Shown one piece after another: positions 1,906 to 31,111 of a stretch of DNA of 49,657 nt. Position numbers and translations under genes: made by a program. The stretch comes from a virus. Within the stretch, counting starts at the first letter, position 1; the number at the start of each line of letters is the position of its first letter. The stretch covers positions 1 to 49,657 of IMG/VR virus record IMGVR_UViG_3300017746_000021. One strand, 5' to 3'. The notes beneath the pieces are model-generated. The model did not search any database and was not told the DNA's origin. It saw only the letters and a program-made list of their open reading frames with translations.

Positions 1906-4338
1906 TCAATTAACAAACAGCTTGCCTCCACGACAGGCTATTTTCACGTCTCTGACGTCTGGATTCTCCAGAACATGATCTGCTAGTAGTGTTTCTATCT
2001 CTTTTTGTATGATTCTGTTGATAGCTCTTGCTCCAAACTTGTGATGTTCATTCCGGTTCACCACCCATCTGGCCACAGATGGTGTGTAGCTCAACGTGAT
2101 GTCATGACTTTTCATACGATGTATCAACTGCGCCAGACCTAATCTGGTTATACTGATGAGCTGTTGTTCCTCTAGCTTGTTGAACATCACCACTTCATCC
2201 AGTCTGTTCACAAACTCCGGACGTAAGGTGTTATCTATCTCTTTGTTCACGTTATACTCTGCATCATTAGATGAACTACCGAAACCAACATTCGAGTTCT
2301 TGGTAAGTTTATCAGCGCCTATGTTGGATGTTAGTATTATGATGGTGTTTTTAAAGTTTATATGTCTGCCATGTGCATCAGTTATACTACCCTCGTCCAG
2401 CACTTGTAACAATATGTTGAGTACATCTGGGTGAGCCTTTTCAATCTCGTCGAATAGCACGATACTGTACGGGTTTCTTCTCACTCGTTCAGTTAAATCT
2501 CCACCAGTCTCGTAACCCACGTAACCAGGTGGAGAACCTATCAGCTTACTGACACTATGTTGCTCCATCATCTCAGACATGTCAACACGTATTATCTTAT
2601 CTGCATCGTCAAACAGAACTTCCGCTATACATTTGGTTATATATGTTTTACCAACCCCAGTAGGACCTACAAACAAGAAGCTTCCAATTGGTCTCTTCGG
2701 ATTGTTCAATCCTGTCTTGGATCTTTTTATGGTGGTTGTTATTACGTCTATAGCTTGTTGCTGACCTATCACATTTTTCTCTAGAAAGGATGTGAGTTTG
2801 CGTATTCTCAAATGATCACCCCCCTTTATGTTGACAACTGGTATCTTAGTTATATTGGATATCACCATGCTGATGTGTTCCTCATTCATCTCACGTGTTA
2901 TCTCATGTTGTTTCATGTACTGTGAGTGTCGTCTATCTATTTTAGATAACCACTTTGTCTCTTCTTGTCGGTACTCTGAAGCGATGTCGTATTGCTTTCT
3001 CTCTACAAACGCTTTCATCTGCTCATTAGCCATCTCGGCGTTTTCAAGATATACAGGATTCACTTTATATTTTCGATACACATCAATTTTTACAGATGAG
3101 CATGCTTCATCAAGTACATCAATTGCCTTATCTGGGAAGTTTCTGTTAGTTATGTACCTGTCACATAAGGATATGATTTTATCAATACACTCATCACTTA
3201 TAGTCAGATTGTGATAAGCTTCAAAACTGGACTTGATACCTAATAAAATTTGCCGAGTCTCTAAAATACTGGGTTCAGACACTCTGATAGGTTGAAACCT
3301 ACGTTCTAAAGCACCATCAGTCTCTACATGCTTTCTGTACTCATCTAATGTTGTTGCTCCTATCATGTTTATCTCACCACGTGCTAGTGACGGTTTCATT
3401 ATGTTACTAGCATCCATAGCACCATCAGCATTACCGGCTCCGACCATCATATGTAATTCATCCAGGAACAATATTATGTTATTAGATTCTGATACATGCT
3501 CTATAACCTCAGTTAATCTCTCTTCGAATTGTCCTCGATATTTAGTACCTGCTAACATCAATGGTAAATCCAAACTCAATATAGTCTTCTTTTGTAGTTC
3601 ATACGGAACATCACCGGCGATAATCATGTTTGCTAACCCCTCTACAATTGCTGTCTTACCAACTCCTGGTTCTCCTACTATCACAGGGTTGTTTTTCGAT
3701 TTACGTAGCAATGTCTGTATGACATGTTCAATATCACCATCTCTACCAATCACAGTTGTTAGTTTACCTTCCCTAGACATCTGTGTCAAGTCCTTAGTGT
3801 ATTTAGTTATAGCTGACCCTGCTGTAGGTTTGCTTGTGGTTTTGCTTGTGGTTTTGTTTGTAGATTTATGTTCTGATGTACCTGTCTTATATCTCTGATC
3901 ATCACTTGATTCCTCGATATACTGTCTAATTGTTGCTATGTTAAAATCATATCTCTTATAAATTAAAGACGCGATACCGGATTCCTTCTTGAATACACCT
4001 ATCAATAGATGTATTAAACCAACTAATACAACACCGTTGCTTACCGCCTCTGCAGCTGCAGAAGTTATTATTTCTTTTATCTTTGGAGAGAATGAAGGAT
4101 TACCATCTCCTGTACCGTCATTAACATCTAGTTGGGTGCGTATTAACATTGACAATTCACGTGTGTCAATGTTGTGATCTGAGAATAATTTATTAATCTC
4201 TTTACACTTTCTATATTTCAGTAGACTATACATCACGTGATGTGATGTGATGAAGTTGTGGTTGTACTTCTGAGCATGTCGCTCAGCACGCTCAACAACA
4301 TATCTACAATCAGGTGATAAACTATATTGATAACCCAT
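1906..4338 (-). CDS. ClpA/ClpC-type AAA+ protein unfoldase
   Basis: 810 residues with the full Hsp100 layout: an N domain (about 1-145) of two Clp-N repeats, a Ser/Thr/Lys linker, a first AAA+ module with Walker A GEPGVGKTA, a short middle region, and a second module with GPTGVGKTY and sensor motifs. The middle region carries a UVR-like helix (EQMKAFVERKQYDIASEY) and lacks the long ClpB coiled coil, so ClpC/ClpA type fits better than ClpB. Between the sensor I region and the PEFVNRLDE motif sits a VGF tripeptide, at the position of the ClpP-docking loop (IGF/L). It could therefore feed substrates to host ClpP; no clpP gene is in the window. A late promoter lies 7 nt before the start. Confidence 0.88.
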   Translation of the reverse strand: MGYQYSLSPDCRYVVERAERHAQKYNHNFITSHHVMYSLLKYRKCKEINKLFSDHNIDTRELSMLIRTQLDVNDGTGDGNPSFSPKIKEIITSAAAEAVSNGVVLVGLIHLLIGVFKKESGIASLIYKRYDFNIATIRQYIEESSDDQRYKTGTSEHKSTNKTTSKTTSKPTAGSAITKYTKDLTQMSREGKLTTVIGRDGDIEHVIQTLLRKSKNNPVIVGEPGVGKTAIVEGLANMIIAGDVPYELQKKTILSLDLPLMLAGTKYRGQFEERLTEVIEHVSESNNIILFLDELHMMVGAGNADGAMDASNIMKPSLARGEINMIGATTLDEYRKHVETDGALERRFQPIRVSEPSILETRQILLGIKSSFEAYHNLTISDECIDKIISLCDRYITNRNFPDKAIDVLDEACSSVKIDVYRKYKVNPVYLENAEMANEQMKAFVERKQYDIASEYRQEETKWLSKIDRRHSQYMKQHEITREMNEEHISMVISNITKIPVVNIKGGDHLRIRKLTSFLEKNVIGQQQAIDVITTTIKRSKTGLNNPKRPIGSFLFVGPTGVGKTYITKCIAEVLFDDADKIIRVDMSEMMEQHSVSKLIGSPPGYVGYETGGDLTERVRRNPYSIVLFDEIEKAHPDVLNILLQVLDEGSITDAHGRHINFKNTIIILTSNIGADKLTKNSNVGFGSSSNDAEYNVNKEIDNTLRPEFVNRLDEVVMFNKLEEQQLISITRLGLAQLIHRMKSHDITLSYTPSVARWVVNRNEHHKFGARAINRIIQKEIETLLADHVLENPDVRDVKIACRGGKLFVN

Positions 4339-4584: not shown

Positions 4585-5385
4585 ATGTTAGTATCACACG
4601 AATCACCTAAGCATATCTTAAATGCATCTAGAGAATATAACGACTATGATTATGCACTCGTACATCTGTTCGAGGAGCATAAAGATTATTTTGATTTCTT
4701 TAAGAAGAGTGTACAGATGAAGCGAACGGTTTATCTAGATAATAGCATATTCGAGCTTAAAGAGTCCTTTGAACCTAGTAAATATATTAAATGGATTAAG
4801 GAGTTGAGACCATCTCTGTATATTGTACCAGATGTTCTAGAAGACAGCGCTGGTACTATACAACAGTTTGAAGAATGGGAACGTAAATTCTCCCCTAAAG
4901 TGGATTTTGATGTAGTTAAGATGGGTGTTGTTCAGGGTCATAATTGGAAGGATTTAGTAGAGTGTTATAGATACATGTCAAAACATGCTGATATGATCGC
5001 TATTAGCTTCGATTATACGTATTATGAATTAACAGCTGAAGGTAACAGTCCGTTAGAGAGAATGTGTAATGGTAGACAGAGGTTTATTCATCAGTTAGTA
5101 GATGAGGGTATCTGGAACAAAACAAAACCACACCACTTACTAGGTTGTAGTCTAGCTAGAGAGTTTGCAAAATACACGTCACCGGAGTACAGCAACATAG
5201 TATCAATAGATACATCAAATCCAGTTGTTGCAGCGATAAAGAGAAAGCAGTACAAAACGTATATTGGGTTGGATGATAAACCTAAGGTGCTGTTGGCTGA
5301 TTTAATAGATGTACAGCTAGACACAGAGCAGTTGAGAATGGTAGAATATAACACAACACAGTTCAAAAGAATAATAAATAGATGA
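4585..5385 (+). CDS. dpdA: DpdA-like DNA guanine transglycosylase (TGT superfamily)
   Basis: 266 residues. The pattern fits the tRNA-guanine transglycosylase-like family that phages use to exchange guanine in DNA for a 7-deazaguanine: an N-terminal SHESPKHILNA segment, YLDNSIFEL (about 50-58), IVPDVLED (80-87), VVQGHNWKDLVECYRYM, IAISFDYTYY, HHLLGCSLAREF and SIDTSNPVV (207-215). Asp52, Asp83 and Asp209 are candidate catalytic or base-binding residues by analogy with TGT. The 3' end overlaps the formyltransferase gene by 4 bp, implying coupled translation. QueD and QueE, which make the precursor, lie at 30-31.8 kb on the other strand. The subfamily cannot be set by eye. Confidence 0.72.
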   Translation: MLVSHESPKHILNASREYNDYDYALVHLFEEHKDYFDFFKKSVQMKRTVYLDNSIFELKESFEPSKYIKWIKELRPSLYIVPDVLEDSAGTIQQFEEWERKFSPKVDFDVVKMGVVQGHNWKDLVECYRYMSKHADMIAISFDYTYYELTAEGNSPLERMCNGRQRFIHQLVDEGIWNKTKPHHLLGCSLAREFAKYTSPEYSNIVSIDTSNPVVAAIKRKQYKTYIGLDDKPKVLLADLIDVQLDTEQLRMVEYNTTQFKRIINR

Positions 5386-5927
5386 AAAAAGATAAAGAGT
5401 GGTATGCATTCTTCAGTCACACTGGTGAAGAGATTTATAATATATGTAAATCAACAGGTCTCCTGCCAGATAAGATTATAACCAACCAATCACCAGGTAA
5501 TAAGTCTATAAGTAAAAGGCTGCTAAAGCTAAATGTAGAGATTGTGTACTTGTCATCCAATCCTACAGTTCAAGATTATGAGAGAATTATGTTCCGATGT
5601 GATGATTGTATATGTACTTTACATGGTTGGATGAGGATAATTCCACCCATGATCTGCGAATCATATAAGATCTACAATTTACACCCAGGATTGATTACTG
5701 TATACCCAGAACTGAAAGGCAAGGACCCACAATCGAGAGTCTGTCACGAGACACATGATTGGATAGGTTGTGTGATTCATAGAGTTACTCAAGGGGTTGA
5801 TGAAGGTCCTGTATTAACGACGGCTAAAGTTAGAAACCATTACAACGGTGAGGAAATGATAACAAGTAGATTAAAAGAAATGGCATTATCCATGTGGGTG
5901 GATATAATACAGATGGAGGTATTATGA
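5382..5927 (+). CDS. PurN/Fmt-like formyltransferase; candidate DpdN-type DNA-base formyltransferase
   Basis: 181 residues of the 10-formyl-tetrahydrofolate formyltransferase fold. The catalytic set matches PurN: Asn99 and His101 in YNLHPG, and Asp140 in TQGVDEGPVL. The segment between them (GCVIHRVTQ) matches the family's strand and loop. It overlaps the DpdA-like gene by 4 bp. A purine-synthesis role is possible, but this context suggests formylation of a modified base. I recall from published work, not checked here, a phage formyltransferase named DpdN proposed to make 7-(formylamino)methyl-7-deazaguanine from preQ1 in DNA. The preQ1-forming enzymes QueC and QueF are not in this window. 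Confidence 0.7.
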   Translation: MKKDKEWYAFFSHTGEEIYNICKSTGLLPDKIITNQSPGNKSISKRLLKLNVEIVYLSSNPTVQDYERIMFRCDDCICTLHGWMRIIPPMICESYKIYNLHPGLITVYPELKGKDPQSRVCHETHDWIGCVIHRVTQGVDEGPVLTTAKVRNHYNGEEMITSRLKEMALSMWVDIIQMEVL

Positions 5928-7504: not shown

Positions 7505-7516
7505 GCATACAGACAT

Positions 7517-7550
7517 AAAAAGAGGGCGGATATATCATTTCACCGCCCTC
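7517..7550 (-). terminator. Strong terminator for the capsid gene (possibly bidirectional)
   Basis: Perfect 8-bp stem GAGGGCGG (7522-7529) with CCGCCCTC (7543-7550) and a 13-nt loop. Read on the minus strand the stem is followed by TTTTTA, a standard intrinsic terminator downstream of the capsid gene. On the plus strand there is no T-run, but the hairpin could slow transcription from the kinase operon. Confidence 0.85.
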
Positions 7551-7575
7551 CAAATATAACCAAGTTGTGACTAGA

Positions 7576-9099
7576 TTACAGGTAGTTAACTTTATCCGAA
7601 GAACGTGTAAACTGGCCTGTTGCGCTGTCAACACTGGAGTCAAGATCTTTACATAAAATAATATGATAATAGAGATGAGCACCAAAAATGTTGTCAACTA
7701 CTCCGTAACGGGTTAGCAAGCCAACTCGAGGGGCGAAGTCATTAGGGCCAATTGTGCGCTGTACCATCACTGGGATGTACGGACAATAGACGATACCTGT
7801 GTCATAGAACTCAGGGCCTTTATAGCCTAGAAGAACGTAGTTAAGTTCAGTGTCGCGTCTTGGAGCGCCACCAAGAACATCACTGCTCTTGGAGACATCT
7901 TGAAACTGCGACTCGGTGCGGGTGTCACGGTAGACGTTAAAACGTCCGCCGAGATTTCCAACACGAGCGATGCCGACTGGTTGTGTATTAACACTTCCGT
8001 TGACGGACATCCACTGGAACTCGGGAAGCATTTCCATGATTGCACATACCTTAGGTGTGGCTACCAAGAAATTGGCAGCTCCACGGCGGTTACGTACAGC
8101 AATACGATTTGCTTCTACGATTATCTTAGCATAAAGGTCACGATTACGTTCGGCCATCCAACGACCATCAGCGAGTGTGGGGGTCCAAACACTGTAGCCA
8201 TGATTCTTACCAGCATTCAATGCTGTCTGAACCATACGCATGATCATTTCACGGTCGATTTCTGCCTGAATTTCATAGGACATTGCGTTGGTCAATTCCG
8301 TGTCAATGTCTATTCCATTCATGTTCTTGAGATCTTGTTCTAGTTCTACACTCCAGCGAGCTGCTAATCTACGAGTACCAGCTTCAACAGCTGTCTTCTC
8401 AAAAGAGACGAGCATCTGTGGAATATCACCGGTGAGTTCGAAGTTTTTAAGCAATTCCGCTACACCTTGATCTTCAGCAGCCATTGGGAAGTCTGAATCA
8501 GCACCTAAACCGGTGAGATCATCAGACTGTGCGCCTGTGAAGCGAGTGTCGAGGTAGTTGTATCCGACTTCCGCACCATCTGAATTAGGCGAACCAGCTT
8601 GGCGGTCTCTCGCGCGAGGCGAATCTTGAGGTGTTGATTTACCATCAACTCCTGTACCAAGTGTGTCCGTTTCATAACGGTAACGTAAGGCGAATGCCAA
8701 TCCAACAGGTCCGCTCATGGGCTGCACACCAACGATTTCGTTAGTGATGAGCTCAGGGAACGTACGACGGATCATCGGAATGAGGATCTTAGGCAGACGA
8801 CTATCGCCGCTTGCATAAGAGTCTGTATTTCCGAGTGCACCTCCAGTGCCACCGTTATCTGCAGAACCAAAGGCTCCACCGGTACCACCAGAAACATGTC
8901 CGCCACCGTGATAACCACTTTCTTTCAAGCACCATGTCTCTTGGTTTTCCAAGAGTATTGCGGTGTTCAAACGAGTGTGATCGTCTTCAATGGATTTAAC
9001 ATTGCTAGAACTATAATCAAGAACAGGGGCCCATTTTTCCATGAGGAGGTTGGCACGTGATTCATCGATATAACTTTGTGAATTATTTATTTGTGACAT
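7576..9099 (-). CDS. gp23: Major capsid protein gp23
   Basis: 507 residues. The T4 gp23 signature is clear: IPMIRRTFPELITNEIVGVQPMSGP (shown in parts: IPMIRRTFPEL, IVGVQPMSGP) then GLAFALRYRY, AARWSVELEQDL, and the C-terminal GYKGPEFYDTG region. An N-terminal arm (1-70) precedes a Gly-rich stretch (about 64-90) and DSYASGDSRLPK. A second insertion (about 165-200) contains GYNYLDTRFTGAQ. Both segments have look-alikes in two small proteins elsewhere in the window. Start: ATG 9099 has a good AGGA site about 9 nt upstream, unlike most promoter-proximal genes here. It lies downstream of gp22, with a hairpin between them and a terminator after it. Confidence 0.93.
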   Translation of the reverse strand: MSQINNSQSYIDESRANLLMEKWAPVLDYSSSNVKSIEDDHTRLNTAILLENQETWCLKESGYHGGGHVSGGTGGAFGSADNGGTGGALGNTDSYASGDSRLPKILIPMIRRTFPELITNEIVGVQPMSGPVGLAFALRYRYETDTLGTGVDGKSTPQDSPRARDRQAGSPNSDGAEVGYNYLDTRFTGAQSDDLTGLGADSDFPMAAEDQGVAELLKNFELTGDIPQMLVSFEKTAVEAGTRRLAARWSVELEQDLKNMNGIDIDTELTNAMSYEIQAEIDREMIMRMVQTALNAGKNHGYSVWTPTLADGRWMAERNRDLYAKIIVEANRIAVRNRRGAANFLVATPKVCAIMEMLPEFQWMSVNGSVNTQPVGIARVGNLGGRFNVYRDTRTESQFQDVSKSSDVLGGAPRRDTELNYVLLGYKGPEFYDTGIVYCPYIPVMVQRTIGPNDFAPRVGLLTRYGVVDNIFGAHLYYHIILCKDLDSSVDSATGQFTRSSDKVNYL

Positions 9100-15966: not shown

Positions 15967-18705
15967 TTATACTCCCTCCTCTACTGTTATTACTGATGTA
16001 CCAGACACGTTGTTGTTTACTGCGACTCTATCCAGGTAGAAGAAAGCGTCACCGCCATAATCCACCTTGCCTGGGTCTCCACTATCCACTATAGTGTATT
16101 TACTAGTAACATCCACACCTGTACTTATGTCTGTTTCGATTGATGAACCATCAGCTAGGGTGTTATCAAATGTAATACTACCGCGAAATGTTTCAGTTAT
16201 TGTGAGTTTTGTTGGATCACCTACATCTGTACCAAATACACGAGTACGTGACAACGCTGACATTGTTAACGACCTCTCAACAAAACCACCTATTGTATAT
16301 GTACCACCACTATCCGCTGTCGTTTTGACAGTCTCTGCTAGGTTTGTAGCATTTATAGACGACCAATCGAATGTACCTTTGTCATCAGAGTCAGATATTT
16401 GTATGTTACGCTTCCATGTTCTGTTACTGTTAGAACCTTGCCATGAACCTAACAATGTACCGGCAGAAGCAGCAGCACTCATGTTAAAACTATCCAGTTG
16501 TTGATTTGATGTGACTGTGATTTGATAAGTTTGAGCTGTTGTATTTTCATCTCCTCCGGAGCGTAACCTACTATTAGGTACCGAAATACTAATGGATGGA
16601 GCAACGTCAGCTATTTTTATAACTCCACTGCTATAAGTTGATGTTTTATCATTCTCTTGTCTGTTTACAACTACTTTAAAATTGTTACTACTGATATTGT
16701 AGTTACCGGAATTTGTATTTGTAACTGTTTTTGTTTGGCTGTACACATTAGTGGATGGTATACTCACTTCACTTCTAGGGTTACTGTAAGTATAGGTTGG
16801 TGACGATCCAACATTAGTTATTGTCAAGTTAACATCAGCTGTATCAGTGTTTTTTAGCGCTTGTTGACCTGTAGGGTATGTTACAGAAAATCCAGAAAAT
16901 GTAGGACTTACATTGTTAACAGTTACTGTATTCGTACTGTTGATGTAATTACCGTAATTGTTGTTACCACCTCGAGCTCTTATCCGTATTGGTTGATCTT
17001 GTGCTGATGTAACACTTGTGTCTATCGTTATTGATGTTGTTGCTTGTAATGAGTTAACAGTTACATTTTTAGTTTGGCTTGAGGAAGCATAACTGCCACC
17101 ACTCGCTAACTGTACATTTGATATGTTGTTTGTATCGAATGTAACTGTAATGCTTATGGAGTCATTATCTTTAAGTTCTGTTTGTGTGCCAGGATATCCA
17201 CCGAATGTGATATTTGTTATCTCTGGTCCTTGTCTAACAGGTACTTTGGCGATTGATGTATGTTCATCTCCTTCTGTACCAAAACTATTCTTAGCGGAAA
17301 TCTTCACAGGTACATCTGTAACGGAACTCAAACTTGTGTCTATAGACGTGTTAAATGTATATGTACTGGTACCATCACCTACATTTACAGGTGTTATTGA
17401 CATGTTACTAACACTAGTTGTAGCTGTATCATTTCCACCATCTAAAGATATTGATGATACGTCTTCTGTGTCGAACGTTAATGTCACTTCTAGAGTATCA
17501 CCATCTAAATACATCGATTGCTGCTGACCACCATATGTTGGTATTGAACCGAAAGATACATTGGTTACCGCTGGACCTTGACCTAATAATGATACAGTTG
17601 TTGTATGAGAACTACCATTACCAGATACAACTATATTTTCTGCTCCGTCCAGATCCATATTAACAGTTGCTGTAAACCTACGTGTATTTCCTATTCTGGA
17701 GATGTACTGATCTGTAATGATGTTGTCATTTATTGTGATTTCTCCCATCCAATCATCAGTAGGACCATCCCATTCAACTGTTATGTCTATATCTGAATCA
17801 TCATCAACTGTGATACCTGTCACGATATAATCATTAGGTATTGTACCTTGTAAATAAGATTTTTGTAACAATCCATTATTATTGACTATATTTGTTACAA
17901 AAACTGGCGAAATAGCATCTGGTTGTGTTGTGCTTAAATCTATATTATTACCATTTGATATGGTGAGTGTGTTACCAGATAGAGAAAGTGTTTGATTGTC
18001 GAGTTCTTCTGCTAGAAATGCTAAATCAACAGTGTTACCATCTGTGATAGTTAAATCAGTACCACTAATAGACAGTGACTGATTCATAGGACTCAAATCA
18101 ACTGTATTACCATCTGTGATGGATAAATCCGTACCATCCAAAGTTAGGTCTTGTTGCATTGTCGCCAAATCAATAGCATTACCGTTAGATATAGTCAATG
18201 TGGTACCAGATAAGCTCAGTGTCTGATCGTCTAACTCTTCCGCTAAAAATCCTAAATCAACAGTATTACCATCTGATATAGATAACTCTGTACCAGATAC
18301 AGATAGATCCTGCTTCATTGGAGATAAGTCAACATCATTACCAGATGAGATTAACAATGTATCTCCTGATAGGGTGAGTTGCTGTTTGTAATCTTCTAAG
18401 CTGATTGTATTACCTCTAGTAATTGAAATAATATCATTGCTTAGAGATATTGTTTGTATGTCAATCTCAGGTAAAGCGTCTGCTAGATCAACTGTATTAC
18501 CATCTGATAATGTTAATTGTGATCCAGATAAGTTCAATGTCTGTGAGGGGATTGTTACATCCGCTCCCGACAGTACTGAACCTCCTGGTATAGTGATTGC
18601 ACGAACCGGAGGAACTAAGCCTAAAGGCTCGAATATATTCCGTACGGAATCTCCGGAAAGGATTAAATCACCAACTATCTCAAATTGCTTTTGTACTTGG
18701 GCCAT
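15967..18705 (-). CDS. Large repeat-rich virion structural protein, 912 aa
   Basis: The N-terminal 270 residues contain about eight 20-25-residue repeats with the pattern LSxSGxxLTIxxGNxxDLS, a beta-solenoid-like array. The rest is Ser/Thr/Asn-rich with several Ig-like or beta-sandwich-like segments (VTNVSFGSIPTYGG and ITNITFGGYPG begin similar units). It probably forms a fibre or decoration. A CATAAATA late promoter lies 7 nt upstream. It is followed after 1 nt by the 181-residue structural gene. Function in adsorption is inference. Confidence 0.7.
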   Translation of the reverse strand: MAQVQKQFEIVGDLILSGDSVRNIFEPLGLVPPVRAITIPGGSVLSGADVTIPSQTLNLSGSQLTLSDGNTVDLADALPEIDIQTISLSNDIISITRGNTISLEDYKQQLTLSGDTLLISSGNDVDLSPMKQDLSVSGTELSISDGNTVDLGFLAEELDDQTLSLSGTTLTISNGNAIDLATMQQDLTLDGTDLSITDGNTVDLSPMNQSLSISGTDLTITDGNTVDLAFLAEELDNQTLSLSGNTLTISNGNNIDLSTTQPDAISPVFVTNIVNNNGLLQKSYLQGTIPNDYIVTGITVDDDSDIDITVEWDGPTDDWMGEITINDNIITDQYISRIGNTRRFTATVNMDLDGAENIVVSGNGSSHTTTVSLLGQGPAVTNVSFGSIPTYGGQQQSMYLDGDTLEVTLTFDTEDVSSISLDGGNDTATTSVSNMSITPVNVGDGTSTYTFNTSIDTSLSSVTDVPVKISAKNSFGTEGDEHTSIAKVPVRQGPEITNITFGGYPGTQTELKDNDSISITVTFDTNNISNVQLASGGSYASSSQTKNVTVNSLQATTSITIDTSVTSAQDQPIRIRARGGNNNYGNYINSTNTVTVNNVSPTFSGFSVTYPTGQQALKNTDTADVNLTITNVGSSPTYTYSNPRSEVSIPSTNVYSQTKTVTNTNSGNYNISSNNFKVVVNRQENDKTSTYSSGVIKIADVAPSISISVPNSRLRSGGDENTTAQTYQITVTSNQQLDSFNMSAAASAGTLLGSWQGSNSNRTWKRNIQISDSDDKGTFDWSSINATNLAETVKTTADSGGTYTIGGFVERSLTMSALSRTRVFGTDVGDPTKLTITETFRGSITFDNTLADGSSIETDISTGVDVTSKYTIVDSGDPGKVDYGGDAFFYLDRVAVNNNVSGTSVITVEEGV
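17950..18520 (-). repeat. Coding tandem repeats (LSGxxLTIxxGNxxDL units)
   Basis: About eight degenerate units of 60-75 bp encode alternating LSLSGxTLTISNGNxIDL and LSISGTDLTITDGNTVDL segments. The units are diverged at DNA level, so the array is old and under protein-level selection. Confidence 0.7.
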
Positions 18706-24826: not shown

Positions 24827-25240
24827 TCAACTTATACTATTCTTGATATGAGTTGTTGACACTCCGTGTAATCTGTCAACTCTTTTGATCTGTATATCGT
24901 TACCAATCGCATACGTGATCGCTAACTCATGTTCTGGTACACCCTGTTTTCCAAACTCCTCTCCGATGACGAATATATCTGGTTGAAATAATTTCAATTG
25001 TGTTGTTTGATCCGGATCAGTATATATAAACACATCATCAACATATTTGATAGATCTTATCATTTCTGATCTGTTATGTTCATTAATAGTTGGTGACGTA
25101 CCTTTGTGTAATCTTACCAGATCGTCACTACAAACACCCACGATTAAAAAATCACCACATCTCTTAGCAGTCTTAATAATATTCAAATGACCTACATGTA
25201 TCAAGTCCCATACACCCGGTGTATAAACAACACGGTTCAT
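24827..25240 (-). CDS. TagD/RfaE-like cytidylyltransferase
   Basis: 137 residues. Nucleotidyltransferase fold with GVWDLIHVGHLNII (HVGH motif, about residues 15-18) and the second signature RLHGVSTTHI at the C-terminus, close to the RTEGISTT motif of glycerol-3-phosphate cytidylyltransferases. It probably makes a CDP-activated alditol or sugar phosphate. Its gene overlaps the downstream end of the 367-residue transferase by 4 bp, so product and user may be coupled. Confidence 0.75.
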   Translation of the reverse strand: MNRVVYTPGVWDLIHVGHLNIIKTAKRCGDFLIVGVCSDDLVRLHKGTSPTINEHNRSEMIRSIKYVDDVFIYTDPDQTTQLKLFQPDIFVIGEEFGKQGVPEHELAITYAIGNDIQIKRVDRLHGVSTTHIKNSIS

Positions 25241-26340
25241 ATTACACTATTCAACACCTCTACAATACCTGGGGGTGTTGTATCGTAAATGAATTGTCTA
25301 CTAAGTTGTTCAGATATTGATTTATAATCAGACTGTTTGATCAAATCAATCTTACTCTGTAAATTTGTTGTTGTTATGCATTTGTCAACATTAAATCTAG
25401 GTCCGATTGAGCTTGAATACTGTACTCTGGAGTAAATTTCATCTAAAACAGTTTCCATTGTATTAGATTCTTGTGAGTGTTTATCACCCCACTCACCGTC
25501 GTTAATGATTATAATCGGTATAGCACCACACATCAAAGCCTCAACATACGTGCTTGATTCTACAGTGAGCCAAAACTTACCAATCTTAGTACCGTGTTGA
25601 AATAGCACACCACCTGTGTCGTGAAAATCTTTAGGTAGTGGGTGTAGAGGTCTCTTATCTTTACGTTTTATTTTCGACCCAACATCCGTATATGCCTTCA
25701 TGTTGTGTGTTTTGTAATACACATACTTGAACGTATCAGTTATGTGTTCAGGTATTTTGTAACCTATCCAACGATTGCTATCCATGATTAACAAAGTATC
25801 ATCTGGTGTACCATTGAATTGTGAACATATATCATCATCAAGATACAACAACCTATCGTCATCACATGGTGTCATTTTCAAACCTTCTCGTGACACAGTT
25901 TTCCACCACTGACTTTCATAATAGGTTATACCATGCTGCTGACAGAACATAGTTTGAGGTTTGGTGAACACTATATTACCAATATGATTTTTGACCAAGC
26001 GAGATGACGTCTCTGCGTAACCACCCATAATATCATGCTCTATATCCAACCACTTAACATTCGTATGCTTATTATCATAATATGTTATCCATTTTATCCA
26101 GAATGGATTACCGTTGTGAGTGACCATGATAATAGTATCATACTTCAACTCATCCATTTTATTTCGAAACTCTGTCATCGCACAAAGTTTAGAGTTATTC
26201 AAATATACGGTCATCTTACTACTTCCAAGAAATCCGGTTGTAGGTATTGATATAACATCAACGTTAGTGCTGATCTGATTAAACACAGGTTGTACAAACG
26301 GTATGAACATCCATTCACATATTACACAGCATTTACTCAT
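25237..26340 (-). CDS. Predicted GT-B-type transferase, 367 aa
   Basis: The C-terminal half has KFWLTVESSTYVEALMCGAIPIII, the shape of the donor-binding region in GT-B glycosyltransferases and teichoic-acid-type glycerophosphotransferases. The N-terminal half has alternating strands and helices (DTIIMVTHNGNPFWIKW). Adjacency to a TagD-like enzyme makes a CDP-dependent transferase plausible. Family not certain; an exostosin-like fold is an alternative. It overlaps the methyltransferase gene by 8 bp. Confidence 0.5.
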   Translation of the reverse strand: MSKCCVICEWMFIPFVQPVFNQISTNVDVISIPTTGFLGSSKMTVYLNNSKLCAMTEFRNKMDELKYDTIIMVTHNGNPFWIKWITYYDNKHTNVKWLDIEHDIMGGYAETSSRLVKNHIGNIVFTKPQTMFCQQHGITYYESQWWKTVSREGLKMTPCDDDRLLYLDDDICSQFNGTPDDTLLIMDSNRWIGYKIPEHITDTFKYVYYKTHNMKAYTDVGSKIKRKDKRPLHPLPKDFHDTGGVLFQHGTKIGKFWLTVESSTYVEALMCGAIPIIIINDGEWGDKHSQESNTMETVLDEIYSRVQYSSSIGPRFNVDKCITTTNLQSKIDLIKQSDYKSISEQLSRQFIYDTTPPGIVEVLNSVI

Positions 26341-26965
26341 GTCTACACTCTACATAATATTGTTTAGTACCATACTTACTTTCCATTTCATCCGGATAGC
26401 ATCGAACTGGTGCTTTGACATCACTGAAAACACTCTTGAACACATCCATATACTCATCAACTGTTCGATAGATGGAGGCATATTCTTCTTTTAGATCGTT
26501 TGAATATTTGTTTATGATTACAGACTCATCATGCTGACATATCACCCTGGAGTAAAAAACTGGAGAGTTGATCTTTTTGAGTAAATTCATCACAGACTCG
26601 GTATCGAATATATAATTCAAAACACCTGTAGATATAGTCACATCAGTCTGTTCTAGTATAATATTACCATCTGTAGAAAAATCACACCGATTAGTTGTAA
26701 CGTCGTCATACAACTCTAAATTGACTAACATTTCCGCTGAAATATCATATGCATAATATTTAGTTATATTTGTTAAGTTTCTCAAACAAGAAATTAACGA
26801 CCCGTCTCCACATCCTAGATCAGTTATAGTCTCACAAGATTGCAATCTAGGTACAAAATAATTTATTTCATGCAATCTTCTCAACTTAATATTAGCGTTG
26901 TATTCTGGAAAGGCTTTCTGGTTTTTCCAGAAGTTTACAGATACTGTGTTAGGGTCATCTCTCAT
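26333..26965 (-). CDS. SAM-dependent methyltransferase (class I)
   Basis: 210 residues. Motif I is ITDLGCGDGSLIS (about residues 44-56), followed by YYAYDISAEML (motif II) and QTDVTISTGVLNYI (motif IV region). The C-terminal part is poorly conserved. The target is unknown: glycan methylation fits the neighbours, but small-molecule or DNA targets are not excluded. It starts in a 4-bp overlap with the sulfotransferase-like gene. Confidence 0.75.
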   Translation of the reverse strand: MRDDPNTVSVNFWKNQKAFPEYNANIKLRRLHEINYFVPRLQSCETITDLGCGDGSLISCLRNLTNITKYYAYDISAEMLVNLELYDDVTTNRCDFSTDGNIILEQTDVTISTGVLNYIFDTESVMNLLKKINSPVFYSRVICQHDESVIINKYSNDLKEEYASIYRTVDEYMDVFKSVFSDVKAPVRCYPDEMESKYGTKQYYVECRHE

Positions 26966-27522
26966 AACCTGAAAACAGACTCCATGTTATTAATTCGATC
27001 TCTAAAATTATTATATATCGGCATTTTAGAGATCTTCTTTGGTGTATCTCTATATTTGTTTTCTGGAAATCCATCAAATGACACATTCAAAAACTGTTCA
27101 ATTTTATTTAAATTACTCCACATTTTCTCAAATCTGATGAAAACTATATCATAGTTCCTTTCTTTTAATTTGTAGTAATTGTCAAAAAATTCTTCATACT
27201 TAACCTTATCAATATCATCACGCACGTAATCCTCTCTTGAGCTTATGATCTTCGGATCAACACCAATATTGATCCAGTGTCTTTCTGAAAAGGAATCATT
27301 ACAATGAATAGAATATTCTGGTTCACTGTATATAAAAACGACATGATGGTTAGTTAGGTCATCAACAAGTTTGTTCGTGAAATGTTCACCATCAACCTCA
27401 CACAACTTATTTGAAGGTTTTCTGGTATGTATGTGATGACATGTTCCGAATTTCTTCAAATGGTTGACAAGCAACCAACTACCACTACCACCATATGAAC
27501 ATACATAAAATGTTTTACTCAT
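26962..27522 (-). CDS. Sulfotransferase-like protein
   Basis: 186 residues. The N-terminal CSYGGSGSWLLVNHLKKFG looks like the PAPS-binding P-loop-type motif of sulfotransferases (Ser-Gly-Ser-x-x-Leu form). VVFIYSEPEYSIHC resembles the second motif, where the usual Arg is missing. C-terminal features such as KIEQFLNVSFDGFPENKY match the LxxFL region. It lies inside a glycosyltransferase cluster, so sulfation of a glycan is a reasonable guess. Confidence is limited by the changed second motif. Confidence 0.5.
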   Translation of the reverse strand: MSKTFYVCSYGGSGSWLLVNHLKKFGTCHHIHTRKPSNKLCEVDGEHFTNKLVDDLTNHHVVFIYSEPEYSIHCNDSFSERHWINIGVDPKIISSREDYVRDDIDKVKYEEFFDNYYKLKERNYDIVFIRFEKMWSNLNKIEQFLNVSFDGFPENKYRDTPKKISKMPIYNNFRDRINNMESVFRL

Positions 27523-27525
27523 ACA

Positions 27526-28701
27526 TCACCGCGTCATTTGCTCTATAATCTCACTACCAACATCTAGTGGTGATCTGTTGAATATTGCATTAGATGGTTT
27601 AATACGTCTATGTTTTCTGTTGAGCTGTTGTTCAATCTTTTCACGTGTATCATTAATATCATATGGCTTGCAATAATTGATCAACCCACCGACATTACCA
27701 TCTCCACGTTTATATTGTAGATATTCTTTACAACTAGTCCATATACTACTCACAACTGGGCACCCTAGATACAGTGCTTCTAGGTACGTATAACCTGGTA
27801 GCTCGTGAAAGGCTGGACCTACACAAACACTCGCATGTTCAAAAGCAGAGCGTAGTGTGTTGATTTCGAGCTTCTTCCCACCCGGCATGTTTACAACCTT
27901 AAATCTACCACTGGTTTGAGTAGCATGCTCCTCGCTAACTAATATCACATCAACATCAAGCATCTTGGAGAAATTTTTAAGTGTCTCAGTATACCATGGC
28001 TGGTAACCACGAGTCGCAACAAACACAACTGGCAGACCAATACCATCACACGCGGCAAGTGTCATCAATTGATTCTTCCTTGTTTCTAATCTACCCACTT
28101 GTAAAATATAATTTCTACTAGTCAGTCCTGTAAGCTCTAGAAAACTGTCATCAGATGATGTATTTTTCCACATATCACTTGTACCTGTCGTCCAATGTAC
28201 TGCGCATGTATTCGCATCTGGACAATCTCTTAACATTGTACTCTCTTCAAACTGACTATTAGCAACACACAGACGGCTATGTCTTAGTACATGTTGATTT
28301 AATAATTGTATTGTTGGTGGTGGTTGTGCAAAGTAACCGATTACCTCAGGAACTTTTCGTAAAGTATCAATATTAACTTGCTTAGAATCGGGGTGCTTGA
28401 CTATAGCTGTAATTGCTCGTGTGAACCCCATCATGGTGCTAAAGTATGTAAGAAAATCTTCATGGAAGCCAATCAATCCAAACGGTTGTTTACTTTCCTT
28501 CAATGTCTGAAAATTCTTCGTTTGATCGAGACATGTATTAGATAAGAATACATATCTACAATCTTTAAGATCCTCGGAGTTTTTTCCTGTCTTTACAGAT
28601 GCTCCTTTAAGTTTTAAACCATCTCGTATCGTGTATAGAGCACGTAGATCACCACCCCATTGAGATTCATTTTCTCTTGTAACTATACCAATGTCATACA
28701 C
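27526..28701 (-). CDS. Glycosyltransferase family 4-like protein
   Basis: 391 residues. The GT-B C-terminal domain is clear: NYILQVGRLETRKNQ, then FKVVNMPGG, and PAFHELPGYTYLEALYLGCPVV with the E-x7-E-type motif. The N-terminal domain starts at GIVTRENESQWGGDLRAL. It begins at GTG 28701, which lies in one arm of a 9-bp inverted repeat. It heads the glycan cluster. Confidence 0.75.
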   Translation of the reverse strand: MYDIGIVTRENESQWGGDLRALYTIRDGLKLKGASVKTGKNSEDLKDCRYVFLSNTCLDQTKNFQTLKESKQPFGLIGFHEDFLTYFSTMMGFTRAITAIVKHPDSKQVNIDTLRKVPEVIGYFAQPPPTIQLLNQHVLRHSRLCVANSQFEESTMLRDCPDANTCAVHWTTGTSDMWKNTSSDDSFLELTGLTSRNYILQVGRLETRKNQLMTLAACDGIGLPVVFVATRGYQPWYTETLKNFSKMLDVDVILVSEEHATQTSGRFKVVNMPGGKKLEINTLRSAFEHASVCVGPAFHELPGYTYLEALYLGCPVVSSIWTSCKEYLQYKRGDGNVGGLINYCKPYDINDTREKIEQQLNRKHRRIKPSNAIFNRSPLDVGSEIIEQMTR

Positions 28702-28998: not shown

Positions 28999-29006
28999 TA
29001 TTTATT
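28999..29006 (-). promoter_or_regulatory. T4-type late promoter (AATAAATA)
   Basis: 6 nt upstream of ATG 28992; it overlaps the 3' end of the previous gene. Confidence 0.5.
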
Positions 29007-29625
29007 TAATACCGAAAGCTTTCTCGAGTTCTTCAAGTTCTCCAGGATCAATTATACCTTGAGCACCTATTGAATCTCCCTGTTCATCCATATAAAGAGA
29101 TATGATCTCTACTCGTTGTTCGGCATCTCCAAACAACTCAATAACCGGTGGTCTGTCATCCTTTATAAAGAACGGAGATTCATCTTCTTGCCACTTACTA
29201 TTGACTGCTGTGTATAGATTCTGTATCTCATCGAAATCAGAACTCACATCTGTATCGTCATGCTTGGTGTTTGGTACATAAAACACAACATCTACAAACT
29301 TCATCGACTCTGCAACGATTGGTAAGCATTTTTGAATGAATTCGTCTTCATAGTCATGACCTTTAGCATTAGCCCATATACTATATACTATATTATCAAT
29401 TGCAGATCCATGGTAATATATATGATCATTATTTCTATGCTGCTGCATTTCATCAATAATCTTATTAAGATTCTCCCACTGTTCTTGCTGGCTTGTTACT
29501 AACGATATATCATCTGGAGTGTAACTATTAACACTCGATTGTAGGTAGTTGGGCCATTTGTCAGTGAACTTATCAAAAAAGCTACTTGTGTATAATTGTG
29601 TTAAGCCAGTAAAGGATATTCTCAT
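29002..29625 (-). CDS. NadR-like kinase homologue with a degraded P-loop
   Basis: 207 residues. The opening RISFTGLTQLYTSSFFDKF aligns with VSFTGAQSTGKTTLLDVC of the kinase at 6914-7504, but the Gly-Lys-Thr of Walker A is absent. Further on, YYHGSAIDNIVYSIWANAKG parallels YLLDRCVVDGYVYSLYLHRHG, where the DR is lost. A strand DVVFYVPNT and an acidic loop follow. It is therefore a probable non-catalytic paralogue. It overlaps the phosphoribosyltransferase gene by 4 bp. Confidence 0.6.
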   Translation of the reverse strand: MRISFTGLTQLYTSSFFDKFTDKWPNYLQSSVNSYTPDDISLVTSQQEQWENLNKIIDEMQQHRNNDHIYYHGSAIDNIVYSIWANAKGHDYEDEFIQKCLPIVAESMKFVDVVFYVPNTKHDDTDVSSDFDEIQNLYTAVNSKWQEDESPFFIKDDRPPVIELFGDAEQRVEIISLYMDEQGDSIGAQGIIDPGELEELEKAFGIK

Positions 29626-30095
29626 TTACTATTATTTAATTCCCACGGGTAAACAATCCACTTGTAGGATTTCTCCGCGAAATATCTAGGTGTAATTTTT
29701 GATTTAGGTTTGAGTATTAAAGAGACGAATCTGGTATTATCAATTTCCTTGCAGATATTTTTTCTTAGAAAGAGAAATGTTTCACCAGTATCGCAAATAT
29801 CATCAACAATCAAAGTACAACCAGTGCTAGATTTGAGCGTCCATATATCTGTCTTAGTTAATTGTTGATACATGACTGGTTCACGTTTCTTTCTACTAGT
29901 TGTATACGACTTGACACCTAAACTATATATACGATCGATATCTAGTTCATGGGCTAACACAGTTGCTGGTACAAGACCACCTCTAGATAATGCAATTATG
30001 TTACCTACTTTTTCGTTCTGTAACTTAATACTATTTGAGATGATCTTACATAAATCATGTATATCACGCCACGACTGTGTATAATCGTTAGACAC
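29622..30095 (-). CDS. Type I phosphoribosyltransferase (XGPRT/Gpt-like)
   Basis: 157 residues. IIALSRGGLVPATVLAHEL is the N-terminal PPi-loop region as in xanthine-guanine phosphoribosyltransferase. CTLIVDDICDTGETF is the PRPP-binding motif (about residues 94-108). The C-terminal FAEKSYKWIVYPWE agrees with Gpt. It overlaps queE by 8 bp. A guanine-type PRTase next to 7-deazaguanine synthesis genes could handle released guanine or a deazapurine base; this is inference. Confidence 0.75.
   Translation of the reverse strand: MSNDYTQSWRDIHDLCKIISNSIKLQNEKVGNIIALSRGGLVPATVLAHELDIDRIYSLGVKSYTTSRKKREPVMYQQLTKTDIWTLKSSTGCTLIVDDICDTGETFLFLRKNICKEIDNTRFVSLILKPKSKITPRYFAEKSYKWIVYPWELNNSK
29633..29640 (-). 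promoter_or_regulatory. Weak late-promoter-like element (ATTAAATA)
   Basis: Two mismatches from TATAAATA, 7 nt before ATG 29625; it lies inside the upstream gene's last codons. Confidence 0.35.
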
Positions 30096-30900
30096 CAGTT
30101 AGTTTATCCCAAGCTGATACGTGTAATCTAGTCAACCCAATATATCCATACTTCTTTGCAACCTCTAGACAAAATCTAGTACGTTCATGAAAGTCAGCCT
30201 GATTATCTAAACCAGGCATCATGATAACTCTTTTAGGGTCGATATTGAAAGGTCTAATAAAATCTCTCTCAATCTCTTTAACACAATCCTCAGTACTGAT
30301 AACAAACTTAAACCAATAATTGTCATGTGACATTATTCTCTCTAGAGCTTTAGGTACAATTCTTCTATCTTTAGACATACCACTATTCTCAAGCTTAACA
30401 GAACAGTTTATTTGATGGATATAGTCAAATAGATCATCATTGATGTAAATGGTACCATTAGTCTCAATTTCATTATATGGGTAAGCGCTATGTGAGCCAC
30501 CCAACCAATCTAGGAAGGCAACAATTGAGTGTTGATTTTTTGGTATGGTAGGTTCTCCACCAGTCCATATCAGATTGACTCTTCTTCCCTTCACCCAATC
30601 AAAAATTCTGTCTTGCTTCCATCTATCAACAAGGTAGCTAAATTCTTTCTCTAGACCCTTTCTCCACACATACTCTGTGTCACACCACCATGTTGCCTTT
30701 CCTTCTTTCATGAGACTACCATCACGACCACCACACATTAAATTACATGCTTTCAATCTAATAAAGTAAGCTGGGTAACCTGTTGTGTTACCCTCACATT
30801 GTACAGAGTAGAAATCTTCAGATATATTTAAAGTGTCATATACACGTTCACCTTGAACGGTACTAACCTGAGTTTCAGCTTTATTTAGTATCTGAGTCAT
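30088..30900 (-). CDS. queE: QueE-like radical SAM 7-carboxy-7-deazaguanine synthase
   Basis: 270 residues from ATG 30900, which overlaps the upstream gene by 20 bp; a longer frame to 30981 overlaps it by 101 bp. ISEDFYSVQCEGNTTGYP is the QueE opening. RLKACNLMC supplies two cluster cysteines and WWCDTEYVW the third, with about 16 residues between the second and third instead of the usual two. WTGGEPTIPK is the SAM-binding GGEP motif, and NEIETNGTI fits the family. The enzyme converts 6-carboxytetrahydropterin to 7-carboxy-7-deazaguanine. Confidence 0.82.
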   Translation of the reverse strand: MTQILNKAETQVSTVQGERVYDTLNISEDFYSVQCEGNTTGYPAYFIRLKACNLMCGGRDGSLMKEGKATWWCDTEYVWRKGLEKEFSYLVDRWKQDRIFDWVKGRRVNLIWTGGEPTIPKNQHSIVAFLDWLGGSHSAYPYNEIETNGTIYINDDLFDYIHQINCSVKLENSGMSKDRRIVPKALERIMSHDNYWFKFVISTEDCVKEIERDFIRPFNIDPKRVIMMPGLDNQADFHERTRFCLEVAKKYGYIGLTRLHVSAWDKLTGV

Positions 30901-31111
30901 CTTCTTGCTTGGTTGAGAAGTACCGATTGATGGTATCAATAACTTCATCACATTTATTGATCTCCTTAATTTTTCTCTCAATTTCTAGACCTAAGTCTCC
31001 ATGCTCGCCAACCCCAACAGGTTTGTCAAGATACACAGATAAGTCTGCAATCGCTATATCTTTAATACCAATGTATTTGTTTAGTATTCCGGTAATGTAT
31101 TTATCTTTCAT
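30881..31111 (-). CDS. Small hypothetical protein between queD and queE, 76 aa
   Basis: Start ATG 31111 lies one base after the queD stop; a longer frame from 31138 would overlap queD. Features are GILNKYIGIKDIAIADL, VGVGEHGDLGLEIERKI and a helical KCDEVIDTINRYF. Its tight placement between QueD and QueE suggests a role in, or dosage linkage to, that pathway. No family named. Confidence 0.55.
   Translation of the reverse strand: MKDKYITGILNKYIGIKDIAIADLSVYLDKPVGVGEHGDLGLEIERKIKEINKCDEVIDTINRYFSTKQEDDSDTK

Follow-up and report, generated by a model that had tools for sequence, protein, structure and literature searches.

A dpdA-formyltransferase gene pair in a phage genome fragment suggests formylated 7-deazaguanine in viral DNA

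What would a phage gain from an N-formyltransferase gene that overlaps a gene for a DNA guanine transglycosylase? Restriction enzymes are known to be blocked by the 7-deazaguanines of phages, and dPreQ1 has been found in the DNA of viruses (PMC6884629). The question is raised by the virus fragment IMGVR_UViG_3300017746_000021, which we searched over its whole length of 49,657 bases (positions 1 to 49,657; hereafter, the window). Its gp23-like and gp20-like proteins are ~30% identical to their counterparts in T4-like cyanophages, so the window is probably a piece of a larger T4-like genome. A preliminary description of this DNA had proposed that a DpdA-like gene and a formyltransferase (FT) gene at 4585-5927 may together make 7-(formylamino)methyl-7-deazaguanine. 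The features that bear on this proposal are collected in Table 1.

Table 1. Positions of the dpdA-FT pair, its neighbours and other deazaguanine-related features in the window
Feature	Position	Strand	Evidence or remark
DpdA-type DNA guanine transglycosylase, 268 aa	4579..5385	+	start 4579 or 4585
ATGA stop/start overlap of dpdA and FT gene, 4 nt	5382..5385	+	sequence
DpdN-type N-formyltransferase (FT), GART fold, 181 aa	5382..5927	+	PF00551, model, clade
DUF5664/PF18909 dATP/dGTP pyrophosphohydrolase-family protein, 119 aa	5949..6308	+	PF18909 E 7e-22
P-loop kinase, dNMP/thymidylate-kinase/NadR type, 196 aa	6914..7504	+	PF13521 E 1e-15
Kinase-capsid gap, no queF or remnant (relative L005 has queF there)	7505..7575		tblastn, HMM
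Second, divergent copy of the DpdA-partner kinase, adjoins PRTase gene	29002..29625	-	kinase HMM 96 bits
Xanthine/guanine phosphoribosyltransferase-like (XGPRT-like PRTase)	29622..30095	-	PF00156; NF006613 E 5.5e-24, sub-cut-off
QueE-like 7-carboxy-7-deazaguanine synthase	30088..30981	-	phrog_2076 QueE-like E 3.5e-43; TIGR03963 E 1.9e-17
QueD-like 6-carboxytetrahydropterin synthase, 213 aa	31113..31754	-	PF01242 E 7.7e-18; phrog_2389 E 1.2e-36

The overlap described earlier is present, and it joins two real open reading frames; the word "fused" in the earlier title holds for this overlap only, as the two genes are separate. The same 4-nt overlap is exact in 22 of the 82 related loci introduced below, and since this arrangement is found again in independent contigs and both products have database matches, we regard dpdA and the FT gene as real genes. 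Of the two candidate starts of dpdA, the second in-frame ATG at 4585 agrees with the N terminus of the homologue from Campylobacter phage CP220 (MLVSHE...).

No Pfam or NCBIfam model scored above its cut-off on the window DpdA, a single-sequence search of the PDB gave no match, and hhalign against E. coli TGT gave a weak one, so the identity of this protein had to come from its structure and its relatives. The AlphaFold model, built from a 24-sequence alignment of window and contig sequences only, had a pLDDT of 94.7, and the best 50 PDB matches listed by Foldseek were all bacterial TGTs (E 2e-8 to 9e-7, TMq about 0.61-0.66), in agreement with the original assignment to a DpdA/TGT-like family. 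Among relatives, the annotated DNA guanine transglycosylase of Flavobacterium phage immuto (vB_FspM_immuto_2-6A, NC_055915) is 43% identical over 98% of the length (E 9e-57), and the CP220 protein, which we take to be DpdA3, is 41% identical. An alignment of homologues revealed the conserved motifs LDNSxFEL, PDxLED, GVVQG, HLLGC and DTSNP and the invariant residues D54, D85, D211, Q119-G120 and HLLG. From the order of these motifs we infer that D54, D85 and D211 correspond to D102, D156 and D280 of TGT. The DTSNP motif aligns with SIDSTTP of the solved DpdA structure 7ui4, in a weak profile match against the PDB (E 0.28).

The second protein scored 43.5 bits on the Pfam model Formyl_trans_N (PF00551; cut-off 26.1), and its AlphaFold model (pLDDT 93.8) has the GART fold, with PurN, PurU, Fmt, ArnA and WbkC among its Foldseek matches. 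The Asn-His-Asp set of PurN, noted in the preliminary description, is formed by N99, H101 and D140 and is invariant in 32 diverse homologues. PurN is also the best relative in the PDB and NCBIfam, and its folate (formyl-THF) motif is kept in the FTs, as would be expected if the gene were a phage GAR transformylase for purine synthesis that lies near dpdA by chance. However, the score on the PurN model TIGR00639 was 50.5 bits against a cut-off of 150.1, and the acceptor-binding residues of PurN are gone from all FTs compared. The GSN motif of PurN (residues 11-13), which we take to contact the phosphate of GAR, is GxE in 19 of 20 FTs and GEE in the window; EHxxYP (the E173 region), presumably the contact to the GAR ribose, has become [SAG]xxxW, with A-L in the window at the place of E173-H174. 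Grouping with true PurN, named at the outset as evidence against the proposal, was not what we found: in a maximum-likelihood tree, 20 FTs formed one clade on a long stem (support 100/100), with PurN, PurU, Fmt, ArnA and the PurN of cyanophage S-SKS1 outside it. A chance neighbour of dpdA would also hardly be its constant neighbour, as the FT is. We therefore rejected PurN as the identity of this protein, a reading to which we give very little credence.

A DpdN/fdPreQ1 pathway was reportedly put forward by Cui et al. in 2023, with a predicted dPreQ1 formyltransferase acting together with phage DpdA, and the window FT resembles this reported DpdN in its pairing with DpdA. How widespread is the pairing? 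A profile search of viral contigs detected 348 relatives of the FT, and 80 loci were kept, which with the window and immuto make up a set of 82. DpdA lies immediately upstream of the FT in all 82 loci. The proposed DpdN function thus gains a strong genomic basis, with 348 relatives and DpdA beside the FT in 80/80 of the kept loci. Typically the genes run DpdA-FT-(small gene)-kinase-QueF, and FolE, PRTase, QueE, QueD and QueC are often encoded upstream. Of the 82 loci, 73 have QueF; in seven of the nine others the contig stops no farther than about 1 kb from the FT, and the remaining two are the window and locus L006. Locus L181 is a third FT locus without an adjoining QueF.

A second search, centred on the DpdA of CP220, provided loci without an FT. 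Where the contig offered 4 kb or more of downstream sequence, 74 loci had both FT and QueF, one had FT without QueF, 41 had QueF without FT, and eight had neither; kinase and QueF both follow the FT in 74 of the 75 FT loci of this kind, the window being the exception. Removal of near-copies left 46, 1, 15 and 5 loci (Fisher p 0.008), where p is a guide only because the loci share ancestry, were picked for their resemblance to the window and lack independence, and where the cell for FT without QueF would hold 3 if L006 and L181 were counted. The presence of an FT hence nearly always implies QueF (74 loci versus 1), and the 41 DpdA-kinase-QueF loci that have no FT fit a scheme in which formylation comes on top of preQ1. 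Many loci without FT fall into one large DpdA-kinase-QueF group (L089-L165, e.g. L102, L136 and L145), for which dPreQ1 DNA is predicted. The QueF neighbours themselves scored 243-263 bits on TIGR03138, under its cut-off of 293, and 14/14 keep ESKS-KLY-NSF, the catalytic Cys, QxD and FHE. To judge from these motifs, the QueF beside the FT is a true bimodular QueF, the preQ1 synthase, and not QueF-L. The link to preQ1 drawn earlier for this locus is supported by the intact QueF adjoining the FT in its relatives, the window itself being without QueF in the usual place. Gene content would divide one DpdA clade into three predicted DNA chemistries, with preQ0/ADG where QueF is missing, preQ1 where it is present and formyl-preQ1 where it is joined by the FT.

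It is unusual that the window and L006 both have no QueF between the kinase and capsid genes, its customary position. L006 is an independent contig with the identical kinase-capsid junction, which makes an assembly artefact an unlikely cause. On the evidence of sequences and models, membership of the window operon in the recently proposed DpdN kind is supported, and the missing QueF neighbour is its unusual feature. This feature is also what one might expect if the FT formylated some other amine, on a hypermodified base, a sugar or a protein, while DpdA inserted unformylated preQ1 or preQ0, and the acceptors of GART-fold enzymes are indeed varied (ArnA, VioF, WbkC, Fmt). Since the FT nearly always occurs with QueF, whose product bears the one obvious free amine of the pathway, we consider another acceptor quite improbable.

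The preliminary description placed QueC and QueF outside the window and called for a search for folE, queC and queF. Our searches of the 49,657-base record by tblastn, HMMs and whole-record family models found neither QueC, FolE nor QueF, with matches at chance level only, and all three were found on turning to larger relatives. QueD and QueE, overlooked earlier, are encoded within the window; the start of the QueE-like reading frame is uncertain, with homology from about residue 50. Whole-record searches of nine FT-bearing relatives (139-230 kb) found QueC, FolE and QueF in 9/9 cases and PTPS/QueD in eight. These genes may be scattered: in the 222-kb record G009, dpdA (near 9 kb) has queF close by at 12 kb, and folE and queC lie at 152 and 171 kb. 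The absence of QueC and FolE from a 49.7-kb fragment therefore means little, as they are often far from dpdA in the large relatives.

Our preferred reading, to which we assign a probability of about 0.72, is that 4585-5927 is a dpdA-dpdN pair through which preQ1 or dPreQ1 is N-formylated, giving 7-(formylamino)methyl-7-deazaguanine in phage DNA. GTP would be converted to preQ0 by FolE, QueD, QueE and QueC, and preQ0 to preQ1 by QueF, where QueD and QueE would come from the fragment and FolE, QueC and QueF from the rest of the phage genome or from the host. The FT would transfer a formyl group from 10-formyl-tetrahydrofolate to the amine of the 7-aminomethyl group of preQ1, either on the free base or after its insertion. 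DpdA would exchange guanine for the 7-deazaguanine in the manner of TGTs, through a conserved Asp nucleophile (D211 by motif), and the released guanine is probably salvaged by the XGPRT-like PRTase. Immuto-type loci likewise have a PRTase gene, placed between queE and folE. Because the FT is always beside DpdA where examined and nearly always near QueF, DNA with formylated guanine is predicted for the whole group: FT-bearing phages probably replace guanine in their DNA by a formylated analogue, which would escape recognition by restriction enzymes, presumably as a protection from host restriction.

We then asked how the other neighbours fit this reading. A kinase gene follows DpdA in nearly all loci, with and without FT alike, and is a constant partner of this DpdA clade; in profile searches its best PDB match was a thymidylate kinase (E 2.8e-9). 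The family is rare, with 41 to 46 of 50,697 phage records (from Campylobacter, Flavobacterium and Streptomyces phages). Two copies occur in Campylobacter phages as in the window; in the Campylobacter phages the second adjoins a dUTPase gene. Of 41 FT-bearing loci, 23 have a DUF5664 or MazG/PRA-PH gene no more than about 3 kb from DpdA, versus 0 of 16 loci without FT; none was found in 748 kb of flanking sequence, a background count biased low by the use of DpdA neighbours as HMM seeds. Between FT and kinase, or just upstream of DpdA, there is recurrently a DUF5664, MazG/PRA-PH, IMPDH/GMP-reductase-family, LOG or weakly DUF1599-like gene. Examples are IMPDH/GMP-reductase-family genes in or near the DpdA operon (L044, 10569-11534; L156, 5002-5952) and LOG-type genes (PF03641) between FT and DUF5664 (L005, 1125-1817; L006, 5355-6095). 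A 115-aa family (phrog_1485), with a sub-threshold match to the DUF1599 "nucleotide modification associated domain 1", fills the FT-kinase slot in L149 (9342-9686), L051 (8315-8689), L044 (11534-11878) and others. The DUF5664 family has been shown to hydrolyse dATP and dGTP in Z phages and is present in phages with canonical DNA as well (PMC12884076).

The constant kinase and the dGTP-hydrolysing neighbours raise the question of whether the base is exchanged before replication. In such a pre-replicative scheme, dGMP would come from a dGTP pyrophosphohydrolase of the DUF5664 family in the window and of the MazG/PRA-PH kind in immuto-type phages, DpdA would swap the guanine of dGMP and the FT would finish the base, and the dedicated dNMP kinase would lift the product towards the triphosphate for the polymerase, comparable to T4 hmC or Z-genome phages. 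The neighbours just described, including the purine-pool genes of L044, L005 and L006 and an HD-domain gene that adjoins dpdA in CP220, are in line with this scheme. However, the TGT and DpdA enzymes known to us all have polymers as substrates. Large phages moreover commonly encode NTP pyrophosphohydrolases and kinases, the kinase family of these loci also occurs in Streptomyces phages without an annotated DpdA nearby, and by our models the FT-less loci have no such hydrolase. Given how common such genes are and the action of known TGT-type enzymes on polymers, we consider exchange in the nucleotide pool rather unlikely and favour exchange on DNA.

Known systems show how such operons vary. The Z-genome module (MazZ/DUF5664 with PurZ) resembles the window in having a dGTP/dATP pyrophosphohydrolase family beside a base-making enzyme, but it makes its dNMP de novo, whereas the window relies on base exchange by a TGT-type enzyme; without recourse to models, neither PurZ nor DatZ was seen among the window genes examined. 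In immuto, a cultured phage, a full set of FolE, QueD, QueE, QueC and QueF surrounds DpdA-FT-kinase-QueF, and its FT is 42% identical to that of the window (E 2e-37). The two phages differ in that immuto has a 155-nt gap between dpdA and FT in place of the 4-nt overlap, an upstream MazG/PRA-PH gene instead of DUF5664, and QueF after the kinase where the window has none. CP220 has the same kinase adjoining DpdA but, unlike the window, neither FT nor QueF near DpdA, and is of the dADG type; dADG is mentioned in Campylobacter phages (PMC6884629). In Campylobacter phage CC_R7 (L004), a divergent DpdA (8007-8747, 27% identity, annotated as hypothetical) overlaps a QueC gene, followed by the kinase and a DNA polymerase.

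The dpdA-FT pair also occurs on two contigs from bacterial bins, L247 (Rhodobacteraceae), with the full operon, and L246 (Clostridiales), with a MazG-like gene just upstream as judged by eye. Their gene content is phage-like in appearance. Most other matches on genome contigs were Patescibacteria formyltransferases without an adjoining DpdA. In the window, a gene for a ClpA/B-like AAA+ ATPase (1906-4338, minus strand) is divergent from dpdA, and such a gene also adjoins dpdA in L006, L170, L174 and L181. Farther away, on the minus strand, the window encodes a structural protein with many LSLSGTTLTISNGNxIDL-type repeats (15967-18705) and, clustered at 24827-28701, glycosyltransferase, methyltransferase and cytidylyltransferase genes of the kind that would serve to make a glycan.
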